Virus record (IMG/VR): IMGVR_UViG_3300046011_011625 | Coordinates: 1 to 29,576 of that record | DNA: 29,576 bases | Direction: 5' to 3' (one strand) | Origin: a virus | Shown here: one piece after another, positions 2,517-29,576 of the stretch | How positions within the stretch are numbered: the first letter of the stretch is position 1 | How the letters are laid out: the number at the start of each line of letters is the position of its first letter | The notes under the pieces: model-generated | The model's input: only the letters and a program-made list of their open reading frames with translations | Told to the model about the DNA's origin: nothing | Database searches by the model: none | Made by a program: the position numbers and the translations under genes

Positions 2517-3233
2517 ATGAAAGTTGCTTTATTATTAACAGGCCATATGCGTTGCTGGGAACAAGTTTTCCCTAATACCAAAAAACACTTTCTCGATAGA
2601 TATAATCCTGATATTTTTATAGAAACGTGGGATAATGAAGCGTATTGGGATCCACATAGTTCACATGGTATTGTCAAAAATGCACCTAAAGTCAACTTTG
2701 ATAGTCTGATCGAAACTTACAAACCTGTAATGTTGAGAAAAGAACATTATGAAGATTATGAAAAAAATTTCGAACAGAGGGCTAAACAGTATGAAAATTT
2801 CTATCATGTACCTAAAAATATAATTTCAATGTTTTTTAAACTTGGGCGTGGCGTAGCAATGATGGAAGAATATATGTTTAAAACAGGAAAAACATATGAC
2901 CTTGTTATTAGAATGCGCCCAGACTTAGTATTCAATCAAGAACTGCCAAATTTTGATAGAAACAAATTCTATACTATGGGTTACAGAAATCATATGGGTC
3001 AAGGCACTTCAGACATGATTCAAGTTGGAAACTTTTTTACTGTAGGTTTATTTTCTAAGTTACTTCATCATCTTCCTCAAATCTACAGAGAAACAGATTT
3101 ACTTTGCCCACACGTTGTTTCAGAACATTTCATAAAAAGATTGGGGTTTCCTTGGGAAGAATTTATCGTCAGTAAAACAATTATGCACACACCATTAGGT
3201 GAATATAAACCAAAAGAAACGTATCTAAAATGA
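2517..3233 (+). CDS. Glycosyltransferase-like protein, paralog 2 of 3
   Basis: A 238-residue protein beginning MKVALLLTGHMRCWEQ, with NPDIFIETW at about 30-38 and TYDLVIRMRPDL at about 126-137. These align with the paralogs at 1822 and 4433 and define the family: an N-terminal beta strand ending in GH/GQ-x-R, a hydrophobic strand ending in Thr/Ser-Trp or Tyr, and an RxD(L/F) motif. I infer a sugar transferase acting on a surface or virion glycan. The gene shares an ATGA overlap with the GT2-like gene at 3230, implying coupled translation. No signal peptide or membrane segment is visible, so it should be cytoplasmic. Confidence 0.62.
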   Translation: MKVALLLTGHMRCWEQVFPNTKKHFLDRYNPDIFIETWDNEAYWDPHSSHGIVKNAPKVNFDSLIETYKPVMLRKEHYEDYEKNFEQRAKQYENFYHVPKNIISMFFKLGRGVAMMEEYMFKTGKTYDLVIRMRPDLVFNQELPNFDRNKFYTMGYRNHMGQGTSDMIQVGNFFTVGLFSKLLHHLPQIYRETDLLCPHVVSEHFIKRLGFPWEEFIVSKTIMHTPLGEYKPKETYLK

Positions 3234-4009: not shown

Positions 4010-4485
4010 AATTTATTGCTCACCGTGGACTTACCAATGGTCCAGATAAACAACTTGAAAATCGACCAGAACAAATAGAAAAAGTTTTGAATCAAGGTAT
4101 TGACTGTGAAGTTGATGTATGGTTGATTTATAACAAATGGTTCCTTGGGCATGACGAACCTCAATATGAAATACCAATGAATTTTCTGGGTAAACAAGGT
4201 TTGTGGATACACTGTAAAAATTTGGATGCTTTGTATTCTTTCAGTGACTCACCTATTCATTATGAATATTTTTGGCATCAAAATGATGACTATACTTTGA
4301 CTTCAGGTAATTTGATCTGGACTTACCCAGGAAAATATTTAACTAAAAACTCTATAGCCGTAATGCCAGAAATCAACGAAGATTATTGGGAATATGTAAA
4401 AACCTTGCAAATATTTGGAGTATGTACTGATTATGTCAAAAAAATCTCAAATGAAATTAGCACTATGTCTGTCAGGGCAACCTAG
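4006..4485 (+). CDS. Small glycerophosphodiester phosphodiesterase-like protein
   Basis: A 159-residue protein with the core marks of the GDPD/PI-PLC-like TIM-barrel family: AHRG near the N-terminus, then NRPEQ, then the metal-binding pair in CEVDVW, then GHDEP. Full GDPD enzymes are about 240 residues, so this is a short form; the barrel may be minimal or incomplete, but the catalytic His, Glu and Asp are all present. Known family members hydrolyse glycerophosphodiesters. In this glycan cluster it may act on a phosphodiester-linked or glycerol-phosphate decoration, which is inference. It starts at an ATGA overlap with the preceding gene, and its last 53 bases are overlapped by the gene starting at 4433. 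Confidence 0.65.
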   Translation: MKFIAHRGLTNGPDKQLENRPEQIEKVLNQGIDCEVDVWLIYNKWFLGHDEPQYEIPMNFLGKQGLWIHCKNLDALYSFSDSPIHYEYFWHQNDDYTLTSGNLIWTYPGKYLTKNSIAVMPEINEDYWEYVKTLQIFGVCTDYVKKISNEISTMSVRAT

Positions 4486-5167
4486 AAGTTACTTCGATGC
4501 TCATGCTTATGTAAAAAGGAATCTATTAGATCATTATGATGTGGATGTTTTTACTCATTCGTGGAAAAATGAGAATCATCTGTTGCATTTAAAAATATAC
4601 GAAGAAATCAAGGCAATTTATTCACCTATGATTTGTTTGTCCGATGTACCTTTGGATCCTAAAATCAATCAAGACATGATCGTTCCGAATGCATCACATC
4701 CGGCATATTTTTGCACTTCTATGTTTTATTCTATTTTTAAAGCCGATCATTTTAGAAATGTTGCAGAATTATTTTTCGATAAGAAATATGATTTCGTAAT
4801 CAGAAGCAGATTTGATTTTGCCTTGAACAAGGTGATAGATTTCAGTCAATTAAAAAAGGGTAAAGTTTATATTTCAAAAGATACTGATGGAACAAATCCT
4901 TTGTTTAATGATCAGTTTGCAATAGCAGATCCGGAAACAATGAAAATCTACTCATCAACTTTTCTTTTCCTTAGGTATCATTACAATAGGGCCGTCGAAC
5001 TTTGTGGTCATACGATGCTAGAGGCACAAATGCAAATGTTTAAAATTCCTTACGAGAGGATTGATATAAATCATCCTTTTGAAAATGGAAAATACAATAT
5101 AGGAAGACATTCAATTATTCGTGATGACATGGATAAATGGGTTGATACTAAAATTTGGGGTTACTAA
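4433..5167 (+). CDS. Glycosyltransferase-like protein, paralog 3 of 3
   Basis: About 244 residues from ATG 4433. A TTG at 4415 would extend it, and ATG 4451 gives MKLALCLSGQPRSY, which aligns exactly with the first residues of the two paralogs. I chose 4433 because GGAG at 4417-4420 is the only nearby ribosome site, though its 12-base spacing is long; 4451 is equally possible. Family marks are SGQPRS, VDVFTHSW and YDFVIRSRFDF. The start lies inside the preceding gene in another frame (overlap 53 bases), so translation is probably coupled. Likely a sugar transferase of the same surface-glycan set. Confidence 0.6.
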   Translation: MSKKSQMKLALCLSGQPRSYFDAHAYVKRNLLDHYDVDVFTHSWKNENHLLHLKIYEEIKAIYSPMICLSDVPLDPKINQDMIVPNASHPAYFCTSMFYSIFKADHFRNVAELFFDKKYDFVIRSRFDFALNKVIDFSQLKKGKVYISKDTDGTNPLFNDQFAIADPETMKIYSSTFLFLRYHYNRAVELCGHTMLEAQMQMFKIPYERIDINHPFENGKYNIGRHSIIRDDMDKWVDTKIWGY

Positions 5168-5204: not shown

Positions 5205-6401
5205 ATGTTATCTTTTGTCAAATTCTTACTGGAGCAACAGGATCCAGAGGAAGGCGCCAGCCGTCAGATTAAACATCTAACACATGTTGAAGATCGAGCC
5301 TTACAAACGGGCGAGAAGGGAGCTTTACGTTCAATTTCCTCTCTTAGGGCCGCGGCCGATCACGTAGCACAAGGTAAAAAAACCTCCGAATTGACAACAA
5401 AGTATGATGGTTCACCTGCAATAGTTTACGGGCGACATCCGGATAATGGGAAGTTTTTCGTAGCATCAAAGTCTGCTTTTAATAAAACACCGAAGATAAA
5501 TTATACACCAAAAGATATTGAAACTAACCACGGGCACGCGCCTGGATTGGTAGAAAAACTCAAATATGCCTTGAAACATTTACCAAAAACCGCACCCAAA
5601 GAAGGAGTGTATCAAGGTGACATGATGTTCTCACCAGAAGATAAAAAGACGGCTCAAGGTGGTGGCGTTTCTTTCAATCCTAATCCCTCAGGGTTAACAT
5701 ATACTGCCCATGGGGAATTAGGTAAAAAAGCAAAAAAAGCACAAATAGGTGTCGTGACTCATTTAAAATACGAAGGTAAAAATTCAGGAAGCTTGAACGC
5801 ATCTCATGAAGTTGACCATGAAAACTTTGGTGAACATCCAGATATTTTCAGTGTCGATCCAAGAATGGATACTTCAAAAGTGCATTTTGGACCAAAAGAA
5901 CGAGCAGAATTCAATAAGCACTTGGCAAAAGCTGAAGAAGTTCACAATACTCATGGTGACGACATGTATGCCGGCACAAAACTTCATCAAGGTGTCGGTG
6001 CGCATTTGGAAACTTACATGAATCATACAGTAAGAAGTGTTGAAACCCCCAATCACCAAAACTTTAAAAATTGGTTAGAAAACAAAAAAACAAAAGAAAT
6101 TGATAAATTGAAAGTTGAGAAAAACAAAACAGCAAGACAAGAAGAACTCAAAAACGAATTGAACAAAATTGAAATCAATAAAAAGCACTATAACAATTTA
6201 TTTAAAATGCATGGGCACCTACAAAATGCTAAAAATGTTTTGATTAATGTTATGAACCAACATCAGCAGTTTCAACATCAACATGCTGGCGAAAATGCAA
6301 ATCCTGAGGGATATGTTTTTCATCATAAAAACGATACAGATAAATTTGTAAACCGACAAGAATTCTCCAAAAGAAATTTTGAGGGAATAAGAAACATATG
6401 A
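5205..6401 (+). CDS. DUF6267-like protein with ligase-type KxDG motif; capsid-targeting-like N-terminus
   Basis: A 398-residue protein of a family seen in T4-like aquatic phages (DUF6267 by recall). Residues 66-70 (KYDGS) match motif I of the polynucleotide ligase/capping nucleotidyltransferase fold, where the Lys is adenylated. YQGDMMF (136-142) could be motif III and PEGYVF (367-372) resembles motif IV (EGxV). Residues 290-345 are Lys-rich and likely helical. The first ten residues, MLSFVKFLLE, resemble the T4 capsid-targeting peptide and end in LxE, the prohead-protease cut signal. I infer a head-packaged protein with a ligase-like nucleotide-binding domain; catalysis is unproven. CGAGG precedes the ATG, and it overlaps the next gene by ATGA. 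Confidence 0.7.
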   Translation: MLSFVKFLLEQQDPEEGASRQIKHLTHVEDRALQTGEKGALRSISSLRAAADHVAQGKKTSELTTKYDGSPAIVYGRHPDNGKFFVASKSAFNKTPKINYTPKDIETNHGHAPGLVEKLKYALKHLPKTAPKEGVYQGDMMFSPEDKKTAQGGGVSFNPNPSGLTYTAHGELGKKAKKAQIGVVTHLKYEGKNSGSLNASHEVDHENFGEHPDIFSVDPRMDTSKVHFGPKERAEFNKHLAKAEEVHNTHGDDMYAGTKLHQGVGAHLETYMNHTVRSVETPNHQNFKNWLENKKTKEIDKLKVEKNKTARQEELKNELNKIEINKKHYNNLFKMHGHLQNAKNVLINVMNQHQQFQHQHAGENANPEGYVFHHKNDTDKFVNRQEFSKRNFEGIRNI

Positions 6402-8305
6402 AAACATTTCTAGAACGAGTAGAAGAAAATGAAAAAACCGAAAGACCAGTTGTTATGGCTTTTGGTAGAATGAATCCTCCCACTATTGGGCATGAAAAAC
6501 TTGTTAATCATGTCAAGAATATAGCAAAAGACTATAATGCGCCTCATCATATAATTATTTCACATTCGACGGATTCAAAAAAGAATCCTTTAGAAGTAAC
6601 AAAAAAAGTGAAACACGCTAAAAGATTTTTTCCAGGTAGCAACATATATTCTTCAAGTAAAGAAGCACCTTCTTTTATACAACATGCATCTAAACTTTAT
6701 CATTCCGGGCATGATCATTTAGTTATGGTTGCCGGTTCAGATCGAGTTGATGAATATGAAAAGACCTTGAACCGATATAATGGCCCACATGAAGGAGCTT
6801 TATTTAATTTCAAAAAAATAGAAGTAAAATCTGCTGGGCAAAGAGATCCTGATGCAGAAGGTGTTGAGGGAATGTCTGCATCAAAAATGCGAGAACATGC
6901 AAAAAACAATGATTTTATGTCATTTAAGCAAGGTGTTCCTGCTCATGTTCCAGAAGCACATGCAAAAGAATTGTTTCGTGATGTAAGAACAGGAATGGGT
7001 ATACATGAAAATGTGAACCATGGAAAATTTAAAGCTATTTTTGTAACAGGTGGACCAGGTTCAGGTAAAGATATTATTATTAGAGAGTGTGTACCTAGTC
7101 AAAAAATTGTAGAGATGAATGCCGGTTTAGCCATATCTATTCTAAATGATAAGCATAGATTACATGAGTCTTCCAGTGATTATCGTCGAGAAGCAATGCG
7201 AAATAGAAATCCTTTGATAATCAATGGTACAACAAATGATCAATACATGATCGTTGAAATAAAAAATGAATTAGAAGAACTTGGTTATGAAACATTAATG
7301 GTTTTCGTCAATACTTCAAACGATTCGTCAAAACAGAGAAATGAAAAACATGCAAGAGTTCTTGAAGAATCCGTTCGTTTTGAAAGATGGAAAAGGACTC
7401 AGACAGTTTCAGAAAGCCTAAAACAATCATTTAATAAGTATTTTGAATTTGACAATTCTATTGATTTAAACGAAGCAACAGAATTTGAAAAGTACGAAAA
7501 AGAAGAAGATTTGACAATCATGTATGAAATGATTAATTGGTTTCTAGATATTGAAGTTGAGAATGAGATTGCAAACAGTTGGCTTTTAAGAAACAAAAAG
7601 ATAAACATCAACAATCTATTTGAACAAGCTATAACCGGAGAAAACTATGTTTCAAAAAATAAAACAGATCGCAATGCTTCTATCACCAAAGAACAAACCT
7701 GTTCCTGCACCAAAGGAGGAAAGACATCCTCTCGACTCTTTGGTGGACGCCCAAGAGAGAAAGGTCAACGCTTACTTGACAACATCTGCCCCAGCTGCCA
7801 ACTCGTCAGAAAACAAGGTAGAGCAGACTCAGTTACCGACGGAGACGTTGCCTCAAACAGTAGTTACATCTTCAGAACCTACGTTGAAGGAAGAGCCAGC
7901 ACCAGTGCGCCAACCCTCCAACAAACCCCGCAACCCAAAGAAACCAGGTTCCAGCAAGACGCCGACAAAATCAAAGCCAAAAAACAAAAAACCTCAAACG
8001 CAGAAGCCGGCAAAGTCTTAAAACCTGCTGGTGTATCATCTGAGTATGATACAAGAGGTTCTGGAACAGTTTATCCTATGTCTGGTCTAGGCATGGTAAC
8101 ATATAGAGAACAGAAGGAGAATAAATATACCAGTGCCGCAGAGGTGTCTACCAAATCTTTTAGAAAATTCAGAAAAGAAGCAATAGATTCACCGAGCCCG
8201 GATATGGGTGTTACTGGAACTGCACATGGGCCAACTAATAAAGAGCCGATGGAAACTTTAAATAAAATTGAAACGAATCCACCAATAAAGAAGAAAAAAA
8301 GATGA
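6398..8305 (+). CDS. Nucleotidyltransferase (NMNAT-like) plus P-loop kinase-like protein
   Basis: A 635-residue multidomain protein. Residues 20-36 (AFGRMNPPTIGH) are the (T/H)xGH nucleotide-binding loop of the cytidylyl/NMN-adenylyltransferase family; VAGSDRVDEY (111-120) and SASKMR (160-165) match the later strands and the ISxSxxR-type motif. Residues 217-225 (TGGPGSGKD) are a Walker A loop, followed by a region like small P-loop kinases. A disordered Lys/Pro-rich stretch from about 417 to 541 is dual-coding with the ORF at 7647; after it SEYDTRGSGTVYPMSGLG and MVTYREQ look conserved. The N-terminus MKTFLERVEE resembles the capsid-targeting peptide. Possible roles are NAD+ or other nucleotide metabolism in the infected cell, perhaps after injection; this is inference. 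Confidence 0.75.
   Translation: MKTFLERVEENEKTERPVVMAFGRMNPPTIGHEKLVNHVKNIAKDYNAPHHIIISHSTDSKKNPLEVTKKVKHAKRFFPGSNIYSSSKEAPSFIQHASKLYHSGHDHLVMVAGSDRVDEYEKTLNRYNGPHEGALFNFKKIEVKSAGQRDPDAEGVEGMSASKMREHAKNNDFMSFKQGVPAHVPEAHAKELFRDVRTGMGIHENVNHGKFKAIFVTGGPGSGKDIIIRECVPSQKIVEMNAGLAISILNDKHRLHESSSDYRREAMRNRNPLIINGTTNDQYMIVEIKNELEELGYETLMVFVNTSNDSSKQRNEKHARVLEESVRFERWKRTQTVSESLKQSFNKYFEFDNSIDLNEATEFEKYEKEEDLTIMYEMINWFLDIEVENEIANSWLLRNKKININNLFEQAITGENYVSKNKTDRNASITKEQTCSCTKGGKTSSRLFGGRPREKGQRLLDNICPSCQLVRKQGRADSVTDGDVASNSSYIFRTYVEGRASTSAPTLQQTPQPKETRFQQDADKIKAKKQKTSNAEAGKVLKPAGVSSEYDTRGSGTVYPMSGLGMVTYREQKENKYTSAAEVSTKSFRKFRKEAIDSPSPDMGVTGTAHGPTNKEPMETLNKIETNPPIKKKKR
7647..8021 (+). CDS. Overprinted Pro/Lys-rich small protein (within the 6398 gene)
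   Basis: A 124-residue ORF wholly inside the 6398-8305 gene in the +1 frame relative to it. It has an ATG with GGAG at 7637-7640 and a 6-base spacer, as good as the accepted genes nearby. The product starts MFQKIKQIAMLLSPKNKPVP and is rich in Pro, Lys, Thr and Ser, ending in a strongly basic PKNKKPQTQKPAKS tail. There is no signal peptide, lipobox or membrane helix, so it is not an Rz1-type spanin. Composition shifts sharply here: the host frame suddenly uses many codons ending in C, which is unusual for this genome and fits dual-coding constraint. It may instead be non-coding by-product; no function is recognised. Confidence 0.42.
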   Translation: MFQKIKQIAMLLSPKNKPVPAPKEERHPLDSLVDAQERKVNAYLTTSAPAANSSENKVEQTQLPTETLPQTVVTSSEPTLKEEPAPVRQPSNKPRNPKKPGSSKTPTKSKPKNKKPQTQKPAKS

Positions 8306-20030: not shown

Positions 20031-20642
20031 ATGCTAGAAACTATAGGTGAAATTTTTCGGGAGGGGTATCGTCGAGGATGGGTGACCACTCGTGATGGTA
20101 ATGCCAGCCTTAGATATAATACTGTAGACCATTTTCATATTACACCAAAAGGCGTTAGAAAACAAAATCTACAGCCAGAAATGTTTAAAAAAATTGGCAT
20201 TGGGCAAGATAATTGGTATGCCATGAATTACACAAAAATTAGTTCTGAACTTGAGCCTAGTGGTGAAATTCCAATGCATTGGGGGATACAAAGAAAAATT
20301 AACACTGAGGTTAGAGTCGTTATACATATGCATCCAACTTACATCACGGCAGCAATGTATAAAGGTATCGATTTGCAAAAATTAGTAGATGAGTTTCCGG
20401 AGCTTAGTAGATATACGACAGTTGGTCCTAGTGTTCCTTTAATACCACCTATCACTCAAGAACTGGCCGATGCATGTATTGAAAATTTAGGTGTTGACAC
20501 TGATGGAAGTTTAAAGTACAATATCATAGGTATGGATCGGCATGGTGCTATTGCAGTTGATACAAGCCCATGGCGAGCATTTGAGCATATTGAAAGGTTG
20601 GAACATATTTGCAAAATTGTTTTATCTTCGGGCAAAGGTTAA
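20031..20642 (+). CDS. Class II aldolase/adducin-family protein
   Basis: 203 residues, the usual size for L-fuculose-1-phosphate aldolase-type proteins. GNASLRY near residue 24, ITPKGV, EPSGEIPMH (about 81-89), HMHPTY (about 101-106; Zn-binding His-x-His) and MDRHGAI (about 165-171; third His) follow the family order. Family members cleave or epimerise sugar phosphates with Zn. GAGGG is 6 bases before the ATG. It is placed between nrdA and nrdB in the same transcript, which is unusual for a sugar enzyme. It could serve the phage's glycan genes or host carbon metabolism; no evidence picks one. Confidence 0.85.
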   Translation: MLETIGEIFREGYRRGWVTTRDGNASLRYNTVDHFHITPKGVRKQNLQPEMFKKIGIGQDNWYAMNYTKISSELEPSGEIPMHWGIQRKINTEVRVVIHMHPTYITAAMYKGIDLQKLVDEFPELSRYTTVGPSVPLIPPITQELADACIENLGVDTDGSLKYNIIGMDRHGAIAVDTSPWRAFEHIERLEHICKIVLSSGKG

Positions 20643-23521: not shown

Positions 23522-24590
23522 AGACTATGAAAAACAATTTTCAGGTGGTGAACCCACCTGGAAAAATGGTGAAGGTTCAGTCGTAAGAGCACTTAATTGG
23601 TATAATTACCACAGTGACACAAAAGAAAGTAAAAAATACGCGATAGATTATCTAAAAGATAACAAATACTCACCTAAAGATATTGCACTATTCGAAAAAC
23701 TCTCCGAAGATCATTTCAAGAATTTAGGTTTTGTTTGCCGAATCAAAAGTCGCGGAGCAAAACTCACGAAATCCAATCTAGACTGGATTCAAGATTCTTT
23801 TACAGAACTAAAGCGCCGATCAGAAGTTGAAAATAAAAAGGTTGTAGAACCTAAGGCAACAATTTCTATTCAAGAAAGGACTTTAGAAAAGTCAAAAGAA
23901 TACATTGGTGAAATTGAAAGTATCATCGATGATTGTTTTCTTGTTCGTGATTTTAACGCAATCGAACCCTATGAAGCTATGCAATTGATGGGTGTTAAAG
24001 CTGCACATGCTGCTCATGTGATCAAATTCTTCAATACTAAAATTGAACACCTTGAAGAAGCCGTCAAAGGAAAAGATCCTCAATTGGTTGAAGGTTATTC
24101 AAACTTTTCTAAAAAGGAACTAAGGGAATACCTTGCATATCACAAAAAGATCATTTCTGATGCGGAGAAACTGTCACATAATGTCAAGCTGACTCGTAAA
24201 CCTAGAAAGAAAAAAGTTAAACCTGTTGATAAGGTCGTTTCTAAGATTGTCTATAAAAAAGAAGATGCTGAATATAAAATTGCATCCGTGAATCCTACCG
24301 ACATCATTGGTTGTTCACAACTTTGGGTATTCAATACCAAAACTCGTAAACTTGGTGTTTATAACTCAATTGATGAATCGGGGCTTTCTGTTAAAGGTAC
24401 AACGATTCTAAATTTCAATGAACAATCTTCAATACACAAAACGGTTAGAAAACCTGAAGCGGTTCTTGCCGATCTTGTCAAGTGTGGAAAAGTTTCTCTA
24501 AGAAAATTTATGTCAACAATTAATTCTGTTGAACAAAACTTGACAGGTAGAATTAATGCTGATACAATCCTTGTTAGGATTATCAAATAA
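23502..24590 (+). CDS. Conserved T4-like phage protein, function unknown
   Basis: 362 residues, starting at an ATG that overlaps the previous gene by 20 bases, without a clear ribosome site. It looks helical and basic: an N-terminal part with GEGSVVRALNWYNYHSD and PKDIALFEKL, a central coiled region (ERTLEKSKEYIGEIES ... LEEAVKGKD), a Lys-rich hinge (KLTRKPRKKKVKPVDK, about 226-241), and a C-terminal beta-rich part with LWVFNTKTRKLGVYNS and VKGTTILNF. I recall similar uncharacterised proteins in T4-like cyanophages and related phages. The hinge could contact DNA. It precedes the RNase H gene by 9 bases and is likely part of the replication set. Confidence 0.65.
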   Translation: MRLTSVKDYEKQFSGGEPTWKNGEGSVVRALNWYNYHSDTKESKKYAIDYLKDNKYSPKDIALFEKLSEDHFKNLGFVCRIKSRGAKLTKSNLDWIQDSFTELKRRSEVENKKVVEPKATISIQERTLEKSKEYIGEIESIIDDCFLVRDFNAIEPYEAMQLMGVKAAHAAHVIKFFNTKIEHLEEAVKGKDPQLVEGYSNFSKKELREYLAYHKKIISDAEKLSHNVKLTRKPRKKKVKPVDKVVSKIVYKKEDAEYKIASVNPTDIIGCSQLWVFNTKTRKLGVYNSIDESGLSVKGTTILNFNEQSSIHKTVRKPEAVLADLVKCGKVSLRKFMSTINSVEQNLTGRINADTILVRIIK

Positions 24591-25445: not shown

Positions 25446-25867
25446 TGCGTAAAAACATTTATGAAGTGTTCGATGAATTTGAAAAAGAAAGCACAGTCGA
25501 TAGTAAAATTGGAGTGCTTGTTCGTAATTGGACACCAACTCTAAAACTTGTGTTGCAACTGGCATATCGCCCAGAGGTTCAGTGGAAACATACTGAATAT
25601 CCGAGGGCATATAAAAAACAGGATATTGTACCGGGTTATTCCTTTGCATCACTTGACACCGAATTGAAAAGGTTGTATATTTTTCAAAAAGGAAATCCTT
25701 CCGCAGAGAAACTAACACCAAAACGAAGCGAAGAGCTTTTGGTTGTGTTGTTGGAATCTCTAGAACCTCGTGAAGCGGAGATTGTTATGGGCATTTTTAG
25801 AAAAAACCTGGATGTCAAAGGTTTGACAGAAAAATTCATTCGCAAAAACATTCCAGATATCTTTTAA
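25445..25867 (+). CDS. DUF6433-like phage protein
   Basis: 140 residues. MRKNIYEVFDEFEKEST, GVLVRNWTPTLKLVLQLAY, PGYSFASLDTELKRLYIFQKG and LTPKRSEELLVVLLESLEPREAE correspond to a helical protein family widespread in T4-like aquatic phages (DUF6433 by recall). No catalytic motif is seen. It lies right behind RNase H, and its start overlaps that gene's stop (TAATG; GAGG upstream), suggesting a role linked to replication. The end, KGLTEKFIRKNIPDIF, is typical. Function is unknown. Confidence 0.78.
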   Translation: MRKNIYEVFDEFEKESTVDSKIGVLVRNWTPTLKLVLQLAYRPEVQWKHTEYPRAYKKQDIVPGYSFASLDTELKRLYIFQKGNPSAEKLTPKRSEELLVVLLESLEPREAEIVMGIFRKNLDVKGLTEKFIRKNIPDIF

Positions 25868-26534: not shown

Positions 26535-26789
26535 ATGTATATTCAAGAACTTAAACGTGTTGAAGTGCCGGCATGGCAACTTTTGACTGAAATTGTCAAT
26601 CAATGGGTGAATCCTCAAGTTGAAATGACAGGTTTTGCAACAATTCAAGATGCGGAAGACGGATCCGGCGATGGAATTCTCACTTTTCCTGACGGTTTTT
26701 GTGAAAAACTCGGTTGGAAAGAAGGAGATCAATTGGAACTTGAACTTTTAGACGATAAAAGCTTCACTTTGACAAAAAAACAACAGTAG
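26535..26789 (+). CDS. AbrB/SpoVT-like DNA-binding domain protein
   Basis: 84 residues with AGG upstream of the ATG. The C-terminal part GDGILTFPDGFCEKLGWKEG (about 45-64) followed by DQLELELLDDKSFTLTKK matches the swapped-hairpin AbrB/MazE fold: a strand, a Pro, a short helix, L-G-W-x-x-G-D, then strands. The N-terminal half (VEVPAWQLLTEIVNQWVN) is a helix of unknown role. AbrB-fold proteins bind DNA as dimers. No toxin-like gene is adjacent, so it is likely a regulator or structural DNA-binder rather than an antitoxin. Confidence 0.68.
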   Translation: MYIQELKRVEVPAWQLLTEIVNQWVNPQVEMTGFATIQDAEDGSGDGILTFPDGFCEKLGWKEGDQLELELLDDKSFTLTKKQQ

Positions 26790-26801
26790 ACTCTATATTT
26801 C

Positions 26802-26830
26802 TTGACATTTTTTCGTTTTTTGAGTATAAT
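26802..26830 (+). promoter_or_regulatory. Consensus sigma70 promoter
   Basis: TTGACA (26802-26807) and TATAAT (26825-26830) match the sigma70 consensus exactly with the ideal 17-base spacer. AT-rich DNA surrounds it. It drives the gene at 26866, whose leader has AGGA (26855-26858) 7 bases before the ATG. This is the strongest promoter in the window by sequence. Confidence 0.88.
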
Positions 26831-26865
26831 TTCTTATACTTCAACGTTTCACTCAGGAAATTTCA

Positions 26866-29034
26866 ATGCTGATCGACGCAAAATCCACTCTTGCAAAGCT
26901 GATGGCAACCGAAAACATCGTTGTTGAACAACGAAAAGTGCCTACAGCATGTTTTGATGTTAAAAATCGAATTCTGACGATTCCAATTCTCAACGGAAAC
27001 CTTTCTCCCGAAATTTATGACCTGATGATCGGGCATGAAACTGGTCATGCGCTTGAAACTCCTCTGGAAGGTTGGCACAATTCGGTTGTTGACCTAAAAG
27101 TCAATCGTACAATTCTGAATGTATGCGAAGATGCGCGTATTGAGAAAAAAATCAAGCGTAAGTTTCCTGGGCTTCGCGCATCCTTCACCAAAGGTTACCG
27201 TCAATTGTTTGACATGGATTTCTTTGGTGTCAAAGGGAAGAACCTCAACTATCTGAATTTTATCGACCGTATCAATCTACACACCAAAGGTGGTGCATCA
27301 CAAGGTATTGAATTCTCTTCTCATGAACAAGAACTTCTCGATGATGTAGAAAGCGCAGAAACTTTTGAAGAAACCGTAAAAGTTGCAATCAAAATTCAAA
27401 AGTTCATGAAAGAAGAACTTGATCGCCAAAAAGAAGAAATGCGAAAAGCTAAGTCTTTTTCAAAAGACAATCCTTTTCAAGGTGACATTGATGAATATGA
27501 TTACGATTATGGTGATGACGATGAAATTGAGAATGAAGAACTAGAAAACGATAATGGTTCTGATGATTATGATTCTGATGAAGACGGTGAAGGAAATGAG
27601 CGCGACTATGGTTCTTATCCTTCGTCTTCGACAAATACACTTCGTTCAATCACGGATGAAAAATATCGTCAGCGTGAGCAAGAACTGTACTCAAAAGAAA
27701 ACAAGGAAAATACCTATTGCGATATTCCGAAAATTGACTTTGAGGAAATCATCATCGATTACAAGATTTTGATTGGCAAAATTAAAAAAGAAAATGAAGA
27801 GTATGAATATTACAAAAATGGATTGCCTCACATTCTTGCAAATTACAATAAGTTCAAAAGCGAGTCAAACAAGGTCGTTTCATACCTTGTCAAAGAATTT
27901 GAAATGCGTAAAAACGCAGGGCAACAATCACGCGCTCGTATCTCCAAAACTGGTGATTTGAATCTGAATAAGATTCATGAATACCGGTTTACCGATGATA
28001 TCTTTGCGCGTATGACAAGAGTGCCGAACGGTAAGTCTCATGGGCTTGTCATCTTTGTCGATTGGTCAGGATCGATGAACGAAAACATGCACGGTACAAT
28101 CAAGCAACTTTTGAATCTAGTTTTCTTTTGCAGAAAAATTAATATTCCTTTTGAAGTGTATGGTTTCTCATCGATATTGAATATTGAAGAAAACGTTGAT
28201 TCCACTTCTTTTATTCAAGGAAAAATTCAAGAACGTAATATCGGATCATTGGCAATTTCAAGATTCTCTTTGTTGAATATCTTTTCAAGTAAAATGTCGA
28301 ATCGTGAAATTACTTTTATGGGTTCACATCTTTTGAATTTTCCAGGACCTGTAAACTCGAATTGTTATGTTCGTTTTCCAAGACTTTTCAATCTTTCAGG
28401 TACACCCTTGAATGAAGCGATACTTACCTCCTTTGAGCTTCTACCTGAATTCAAACGGCGTAACAAACTTGAAATTGTCAATACAGTGTTTTTGACTGAT
28501 GGTAATGGTGGAGCGATTGGTGAAAGAATTGAATCTGTAAAAACAAATACAAACATTCTGTATAAATCGTATAAGTCGCGTATTTGGTTTCGTGATCCGA
28601 TAACGAAAGCATCGATTGAAATTGATTCGGTTGAAGGATTACATTTTTCTCATGGGCTATCAGAGTTCGCCGCGCTTCAGACCGTTGCATTTTTAAAACT
28701 ACTCAAAGCGCGAGTTGGTTGTAATATCATTGGTTTCTATATGTGTAATGTTCGAAATGCGCGAGATGGTATGGAGTGTTATATGAAAAAAGAATTGATC
28801 GATCAAAAGATTGCCGAATTTCGCAAGAACAAACATGCGATTGTTTCGAATATTGGGTATGATGACTTTTACTTTATTCGTTCGGAAACAATGAACATCG
28901 AAGATGCTGAGTTTGAAATTACCGAAACCGCAAAGAAAACCACTCGTGCGCTTGTCACGGCGTTTTCTAAATACACAAATGGGCGAATTCTAAACCGTAT
29001 TGTATTGAGCCGATTTATTACACTGATTTCATAG
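26866..29034 (+). CDS. CobT-like protein: HExxH metallopeptidase-like domain plus VWA domain
   Basis: 722 residues. Residues 57-61 (HETGH) form an HExxH zinc site in an N-terminal peptidase-like domain, with EDARIEKK downstream as a possible third ligand region. Residues about 205-260 are a long acidic, disordered segment. A C-terminal von Willebrand A domain has the MIDAS motif DWSGS (399-403), a conserved Thr in LSGTPLNEA, and a later FLTDGNGG. The layout matches phage CobT-like/VWA proteins that partner a MoxR-type AAA+ ATPase (CobS-like). No such ATPase is in the window and it may lie beyond it. A chaperone or remodelling role is inferred; cobalt chelation is not implied. It has its own consensus promoter. 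Confidence 0.82.
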   Translation: MLIDAKSTLAKLMATENIVVEQRKVPTACFDVKNRILTIPILNGNLSPEIYDLMIGHETGHALETPLEGWHNSVVDLKVNRTILNVCEDARIEKKIKRKFPGLRASFTKGYRQLFDMDFFGVKGKNLNYLNFIDRINLHTKGGASQGIEFSSHEQELLDDVESAETFEETVKVAIKIQKFMKEELDRQKEEMRKAKSFSKDNPFQGDIDEYDYDYGDDDEIENEELENDNGSDDYDSDEDGEGNERDYGSYPSSSTNTLRSITDEKYRQREQELYSKENKENTYCDIPKIDFEEIIIDYKILIGKIKKENEEYEYYKNGLPHILANYNKFKSESNKVVSYLVKEFEMRKNAGQQSRARISKTGDLNLNKIHEYRFTDDIFARMTRVPNGKSHGLVIFVDWSGSMNENMHGTIKQLLNLVFFCRKINIPFEVYGFSSILNIEENVDSTSFIQGKIQERNIGSLAISRFSLLNIFSSKMSNREITFMGSHLLNFPGPVNSNCYVRFPRLFNLSGTPLNEAILTSFELLPEFKRRNKLEIVNTVFLTDGNGGAIGERIESVKTNTNILYKSYKSRIWFRDPITKASIEIDSVEGLHFSHGLSEFAALQTVAFLKLLKARVGCNIIGFYMCNVRNARDGMECYMKKELIDQKIAEFRKNKHAIVSNIGYDDFYFIRSETMNIEDAEFEITETAKKTTRALVTAFSKYTNGRILNRIVLSRFITLIS

Positions 29035-29044
29035 GATTAAAAAA

Positions 29045-29576
29045 ATGATTTATATCGTTCGTGACGTACTTTCACAACCACTGATTGATAAAATTCTTGC
29101 ATGGAATGAAGAAACAAAGGGAGGTGATGTATGGGCTTCCAATCAAGTCAAATGGGTAAATGTGCTTAAGTATGCCACGACCGGTACGATTCTGTCTCGG
29201 GTCTTTTCAGAAGAGATCCGCGCAGAAATCTTTGATGACCTGTATATTCGCCGTAAGATCGATCACCAACCATCCTCGACCTCTGCGCTTTTTTATATGG
29301 GTTTTCCGCATTCCTGCGTCAACTGGCATTCAGATTTTCCAGACTATGATGCAATGTCGATTTACCTGAGTAAAGAATGGGATTCCAATTGGGGAGGATG
29401 GTTTGCATGGACCGAAGAAAATGCAGGTAAAGACCTTTCTCAACCACAATTCAATCCTCTTTCGGGTAACTTCTTTGTTCCACAGTACAACACGGCTGTA
29501 CACTCAACAAACACCGAGTGGCATTGCACGACACCAATCTCCTCGATGGCACCTCCACGAATTTCCATTCAATTAT
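29045..29576 (+). CDS. 2-oxoglutarate/Fe(II) oxygenase (3' partial)
   Basis: 177 codons are visible from ATG 29045, which has AGGA 8 bases upstream; the end runs off the window. HSD (His95-x-Asp97) in NWHSDFPDYD, His153 in TAVHST and Arg172 in PPRISIQL are the iron ligands and 2-oxoglutarate-binding Arg of the prolyl-4-hydroxylase-type superfamily. WDSNWGGWFAWTE (112-124) and LSGNFFVPQYN fill the usual strands between them. Such phage enzymes hydroxylate proteins, nucleobases or other small targets; the target here is unknown. It starts 10 bases after the CobT-like gene and probably shares its promoter. Confidence 0.85.
   Translation, partial: MIYIVRDVLSQPLIDKILAWNEETKGGDVWASNQVKWVNVLKYATTGTILSRVFSEEIRAEIFDDLYIRRKIDHQPSSTSALFYMGFPHSCVNWHSDFPDYDAMSIYLSKEWDSNWGGWFAWTEENAGKDLSQPQFNPLSGNFFVPQYNTAVHSTNTEWHCTTPISSMAPPRISIQL

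Follow-up and report, generated by a model that had tools for sequence, protein, structure and literature searches.

A CobT-like phage protein with an HExxH site and a VWA domain as a candidate peptidase co-factor of a CobS-type AAA+ ATPase

The gene and its promoter

The window, by which we mean the whole stretch of viral DNA that was analysed (a virus record of 29,576 bases), encodes on the plus strand a CobT-like protein of 722 amino acids (26866..29034, ATG start) that combines an HExxH motif with a VWA domain. Profile comparison assigns this protein over its full length to PHROG 459, annotated ‘peptidase’ (E = 1.4e-192, residues 4-722 on positions 5-736 of 736), and no family in Pfam, NCBIfam or PADLOC was matched above the cut-off. 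An earlier note on this DNA had described a 722-residue protein with HETGH (residues 57-61), an acidic linker and the MIDAS motif DWSGS (residues 399-403), all of which are present in the translated open reading frame; the position that it gave as the start, 26802, is that of a promoter, and the gene itself begins at 26866. Given the protein's own composition, HExxH would be expected 0.02 times by chance. Directly 5' of the promoter lies a small ORF (26535-26789, +) with a MazE/AbrB-like domain (PF04014, 26 bits), and the gene is followed by an ORF cut by the window end (29045-29575, +) that resembles 2OG-Fe(II) oxygenases below the Pfam cut-off. Elsewhere in the window, three neighbouring ORFs (1822-2505, 2517-3233 and 4415-5167, all +) match PHROG 13607, whose function is unknown, and form a local gene family, and 6398-8305 (+) encodes a 635-residue protein in which a cytidylyltransferase-like part is joined to an ATPase-like part.

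The sequence TTGACA-N17-TATAAT at 26802..26830 (+), in which the earlier note had recognised a perfect sigma70 promoter with a 17-base spacer, matches at 12/12 positions and is the sole exact match in the window with a spacer of 16-18 bases (0.06 expected; an exact match appeared in 6 of 100 shuffles of the window). All 13 close relatives have 11 or 12 of the 12 bases just 5' of the same gene, with a spacer of 16 or 17 bases whose sequence has changed, some of these relatives being near-copies (L001, for example, has 5 differences from the window gene over 2,166 bases). Among 19 more distant relatives, at least 10 of the 12 bases were found in 13 and fewer in 6; the corresponding frequency in random 120-base stretches of the window was 64/2000, the stretches taken from the relatives being 130 bases long. 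Because 11-12 of the 12 bases are kept in 13 relatives despite the altered spacer, the match is not attributable to chance, and its reading as a sigma70 promoter of the early type is supported. Judged from sequence, the gene is probably read from a host sigma70-type promoter, which would make early transcription probable; a search of open-licence papers for expression timing in cyanophages gave nothing on point. Among PHROG 459 members, a conserved sigma70-type promoter was demonstrated for the window's clade only. Three further promoter-like sites (20494-20522, 24540-24568 and 25653-25681, all +) match at 11/12 positions with a 17-base spacer; including the perfect one, the window thus holds four, a number that was reached in 0/100 shuffles.

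The promoter bears on the idea that the protein is a virion or tail assembly factor, like the MoxR-VWA tail system of an archaeal virus, for which PMC7159879 provides a virus-borne precedent. Both the sigma70-type promoter of the window's clade and the position of the cyanophage gene between gp46 and gp45/gp44, that is, in the replication and recombination block, speak against such a role, which we consider highly improbable.

Domains and conserved motifs

PHROG 459 is near-universal in T4-like cyanophages, and a tblastn search with the window protein against 50,697 phage records gave hits in 463, and 450 of these bear the name Synechococcus, Prochlorococcus or Cyanophage. The cyanophage ‘peptidase’ (T4-GC 146) has the same HExxH, glutamate helix, MIDAS and CobS partner, and the window protein is 26-61% identical to the 51 relatives with which it was aligned. 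HExxH is carried by 20/20 aligned viral homologues, among which H57, E58, H61, N85, E88, D89, R91, I92, D399, S401, G402, S403, T513 and D545 are invariant. In two scans whose search patterns did not include the N-terminal motif, HExxH was found in 22/22 genome-collection loci with an N-terminus (the 23rd being cut) and in 73/73 loci with an intact N-terminus retrieved by a VWA-only query (the other 7 of 80 being cut), with some contigs recurring between the scans; one further scan that had HExxH in its search pattern was left out of the conservation counts. The 52-row alignment contains 37 invariant columns, with 21 in residues 1-160, none in residues 161-330 and 16 beyond; H57, E58, H61, N85, E88, D89, R91, D399, S401, S403 and D545 occur in 52/52 rows, and T513 in 51/52.

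The motif HETGH (residues 57-61; 27034..27048, +) lies in an N-terminal gluzincin-like domain (residues 1-198; 26866..27459, +), for which AlphaFold2, applied to the domain alone, gives a pLDDT of 91.7. In this model HExxH falls within helix 48-64, and E88, the putative third metal ligand in NVCEDARIE (residues 85-93; 27118..27144, +), within the predicted helix 81-99, a putative glutamate helix; the gluzincin arrangement of HExxH with a downstream glutamate ligand on the next helix is found in both alignment and model. The closest folds are zinc metallopeptidases, as the best 16 VIA matches (ArdC, selecase, IrrE/PprI, BlaR1, jannalysin, abylysin and a putative Zn peptidase) are without exception zincin-type proteins, at Z scores from 5.2 down to 3.9, and the best E value in Foldseek was 0.17. 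ArdC and IrrE are zincins. Since the best neighbours are all zincins but the scores are modest, we regard a zincin fold of the modelled domain as likely rather than proven. The order of predicted strands, HExxH helix and glutamate helix is shared with minigluzincins, ArdC, IrrE and the BlaR1 peptidase domain, although Z is only about 5; to our knowledge, none of these proteins has a VWA or AAA+ partner. The fold matches listed for the models do not include the solved CobT chain 9uka_G, and a sequence search of the viral family against solved structures returned chance-level matches only.

The domain is followed by an acidic, probably disordered linker (residues 199-262; 27460..27651, +), in which 24 of the 64 residues are D/E and 3 are K/R, and for which pLDDT is below 50 at residues 199-257. 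The VWA domain (residues 390-722; 28033..29031, +) contains the MIDAS residues in DWSGS (residues 399-403; 28060..28074, +), T513 (28402-28404, +) and D545 (28498-28500, +), so that the pattern DxSxS...T...D is found together with a predicted VWA fold. In the full-length model (mean pLDDT 76), the VWA part comes closest to the VWA domain of NorD (Z 15.2, rmsd 8.0, 256 residues aligned) and to the MIDAS domains of MDN1 (Z 14.9, 3.7 A, 222 aligned) and Rea1 (Z 14.2, 3.9 A, 224 aligned), with other VWA domains scoring Z 12.1 or less. The likeness to NorD and Midasin extends to the partner class, which is AAA+ as for NorQ and the AAA+ ring, but the match is restricted to the VWA part (model residues ~282 on), at 10-15% identity. 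That both of these nearest VWA folds partner AAA+ proteins supports the reading of the window protein as an AAA+ co-factor.

The same nearest folds are in keeping with a non-proteolytic alternative: the AAA+ and VWA proteins would form a remodelling chaperone comparable to NorQD, RavA-ViaA or Midasin, and the zinc bound by HExxH would serve only to hold the N-terminal domain together or to dock CobS. A 206-residue N-terminal part of CobT has been solved with a CobS fragment (entry 21vu), and the N-terminal domain may therefore be kept for docking, which counts against a peptidase. Of eight more divergent CobT-like proteins from viruses, six carry HExxH (CRP-810, Gordonia FlyingTortilla, Mae-Yong1326-1, Klebsiella GArcari-2022a, archaeal virus HVTV-1 and a prophage-like region of G145), whereas Nican01 and P74-26 have lost it yet retain the AAA neighbour. 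The catalytic glutamate E58, however, for which a structural zinc site has no need, is invariant in 52/52 rows, and we consider a purely remodelling function rather unlikely.

The CobS-type AAA+ partner and vitamin B12

A PF07728 search found no AAA+ gene inside the window, which ends 0.5 kb past the CobT-like gene. The earlier note had placed the AAA+ partner outside the window, had proposed looking upstream and downstream for a MoxR/CobS-type ATPase, and had named the lack of such a gene, or of HExxH in homologues, as evidence that would speak against its reading. Relatives do contain CobS-type ATPase genes, and HExxH is conserved in homologues; the assignment as an HExxH plus VWA (CobT-like) protein is supported, as is the possibility of a peptidase. 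Overall that interpretation held in part, as it had missed the family PHROG 459 and its already known CobS partner, the CobT identity being in print (PMC8651126).

Phage CobS is a MoxR/CobS-type AAA+ protein, with matches to Midasin, cobaltochelatase CobS, NorQ and CbbQ. The CobT-like gene lies 5' of CobS in 11/11 main-family members that were annotated or read (Syn33, OC, DLP6, S-H9-2, P-TIM68, S-SRM01, ACG-2014f, P-HM1, HTVC008M, MED4-213 and AG-345-L05), and the pairing has been published: Liu et al. 2021 name the gene cobT and call the peptidase label a mistake (PMC8651126). CobS searches matched 770 phage records, with the same counts in the cyanophage name groups (365, 61 and 24) as for the CobT-like gene, a comparison of totals by name group. 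At 47 of the 80 loci retrieved by the VWA query, CobS follows within 1.8 kb; the 33 loci without it belong in 31 cases to the window's clade (38-50% identity), and the other 2 are on contigs that end within 160 bases. Genome-collection loci contain CobS in 14/23 cases, and among the other nine, L046 and the window-like L045 have 2,975 and 5,946 bases downstream without CobS, and seven have 0-667 bases. Whereas CobS adjoins the gene in PHROG 459 cyanophages, it lies 14-18 kb off in the window's clade, where it was found 13.7-18.3 kb downstream in 5/15 records (in one of them, G004, split in two pieces by a stop), the other 10 records ending at most 14.5 kb downstream.

The pair counts exclude the S. 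aureus phage SA3, as no VWA or HExxH gene adjoins its CobS-like AAA+ gene (L025 3707-4825); Staphylococcus phage records matching CobS number 236. With the Ochrobactrum phage protein as query, no match was obtained among plasmids. Many loci of the phage family (L032-L054) come from contigs that are assigned to MAGs of bacteria or archaea, and binned ‘cobS/cobT’ genes may therefore be phage DNA.

Liu et al. 2021 (PMC8651126) hypothesise that viral CobS and the CobT-like protein join host CobN as cobaltochelatase and raise the supply of vitamin B12; parts of their account are repeated in PMC9503304 and PMC12043954, and PMC5083919 doubts the homology of cyanophage cobS to bacterial cobS. Phage CobS matches the solved cobaltochelatase CobS (E = 2e-35), and homology to CobT can be traced through intermediates. 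CobN-type proteins are present in genomes G009, G010, G011 and G145 and absent from G012-G015; the CobN-family proteins of the cyanobacterial genomes G010 and G011 make a B12 hijack conceivable for cyanobacterial hosts. Against a role in B12 supply, CobN is absent from 18/18 viral records as well as from the Nonlabens isolate genome G012, a presumed host in that it holds a T4-like phage contig with the gene pair. Furthermore, the reductase encoded in the window is of class I and has an R2 subunit, an enzyme type that needs no B12, and the intact HExxH...E that is conserved in viruses is found at the site in 1/74 bacterial CobT ORFs. We therefore judge a contribution to B12 synthesis to be quite improbable.

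Relationship to bacterial CobT and a proposed machine

Cobaltochelatase CobT (PF06213 + PF11775; 9uka) shares with the window protein the order of N-terminal domain, acidic linker and MIDAS VWA, a CobS-type partner and an E-x-A-R-[IV]-E helix, but has HDxxxxH or less in place of HETGH. The comparison covered ORFs from 74 bacterial CobT loci of one phylum. Of these loci, 58 were the best-scoring matches (among 85/115 genomes of a class and 54/200 of a phylum, with one addition), and the other 16 had low scores. Typically, bacterial CobT has HDxxxxH at the site and keeps EQARVE; 3/74 ORFs contain HExxH somewhere in their first 250 residues, two of them off site (position 32 in L100, position 196 in L122) and one, L124, at the peptidase site. 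L124 has a weak CobT score (36 bits) and a match to PHROG 1576, and its prophage-like region includes an adjacent DNA primase of phage type. At 7903-12618 of L285 (G145:C2:33000-52000), in a bacterial genome, an HExxH CobT-like protein is flanked by a DUF3150 protein on one side and by a DNA primase of phage type on the other; this is a prophage or element in which the neighbour gene is a different one.

When the profile of the viral family was compared directly with that of bacterial CobT, the probability was 2.7%, with EDARIE aligned to EQARVE. Because this direct link is weak, homology of the N-terminal domains is argued via intermediates: a profile of the viral N-domain retrieves Klebsiella GArcari (1.2e-10), G145 and CRP-810 (3e-5), and the Pfam model of the CobT N-domain retrieves Klebsiella GArcari (1.4e-22) and CRP-810 (2e-15). 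The window protein matched none of PF06213, PF11775 and TIGR01651 in Pfam up to E = 1 or in NCBIfam up to E = 0.1, while more divergent phage relatives do match the Pfam/NCBIfam CobT models. In a tree with unknown root, bacterial CobT proteins form one group (100/100) beside the viral HExxH forms, two motif changes being needed; since the root is not given and long branches meet, as the tool warned, we offer an ancestral peptidase as a hypothesis only. One resolution of the naming dispute suits both sides, as the phage protein has the architecture and partner of CobT and, in addition, a peptidase site that bacterial CobT lacks. Among the matches listed in searches of open-licence papers, no passage discusses the intact peptidase site of viral CobT.

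The viral family keeps an apparently intact peptidase site that is lost in the B12 enzyme, and the gene pair may thus be a protein-processing machine. We favour, with a probability of about 55%, the reading that the window protein is the VWA co-factor of a CobS-type AAA+ ATPase and carries an intact, putatively working N-terminal zinc-peptidase domain of the gluzincin type. Transcribed from the host sigma70-type promoter, probably early, such a protein would be docked by a CobS hexamer encoded outside the window; its MIDAS site would capture a substrate protein, ATP-driven movement via the flexible acidic linker would pull or remodel this substrate, and the HExxH...E domain, with its presumed metal, would cleave it. 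More tentatively, phage ‘CobS’, long regarded as an auxiliary gene for vitamin B12, might be the motor of a virus-encoded ATP-dependent protease with the PHROG 459 family as its peptidase chain; the peptidase form would then be ancestral, and bacterial CobT would descend from it as a branch whose active site has been lost.

T4-like marine cyanophages have cobS in their core genome, and ecological surveys count it among the B12 genes. Should the two proteins form a proteolytic machine, the cobS counts of such surveys are no measure of B12 metabolism, and an uncharacterised ATP-driven peptidase would be encoded by some of the marine phages with the widest distribution. The CobT subunit would then have a testable origin, namely, a peptidase that lost its active site.
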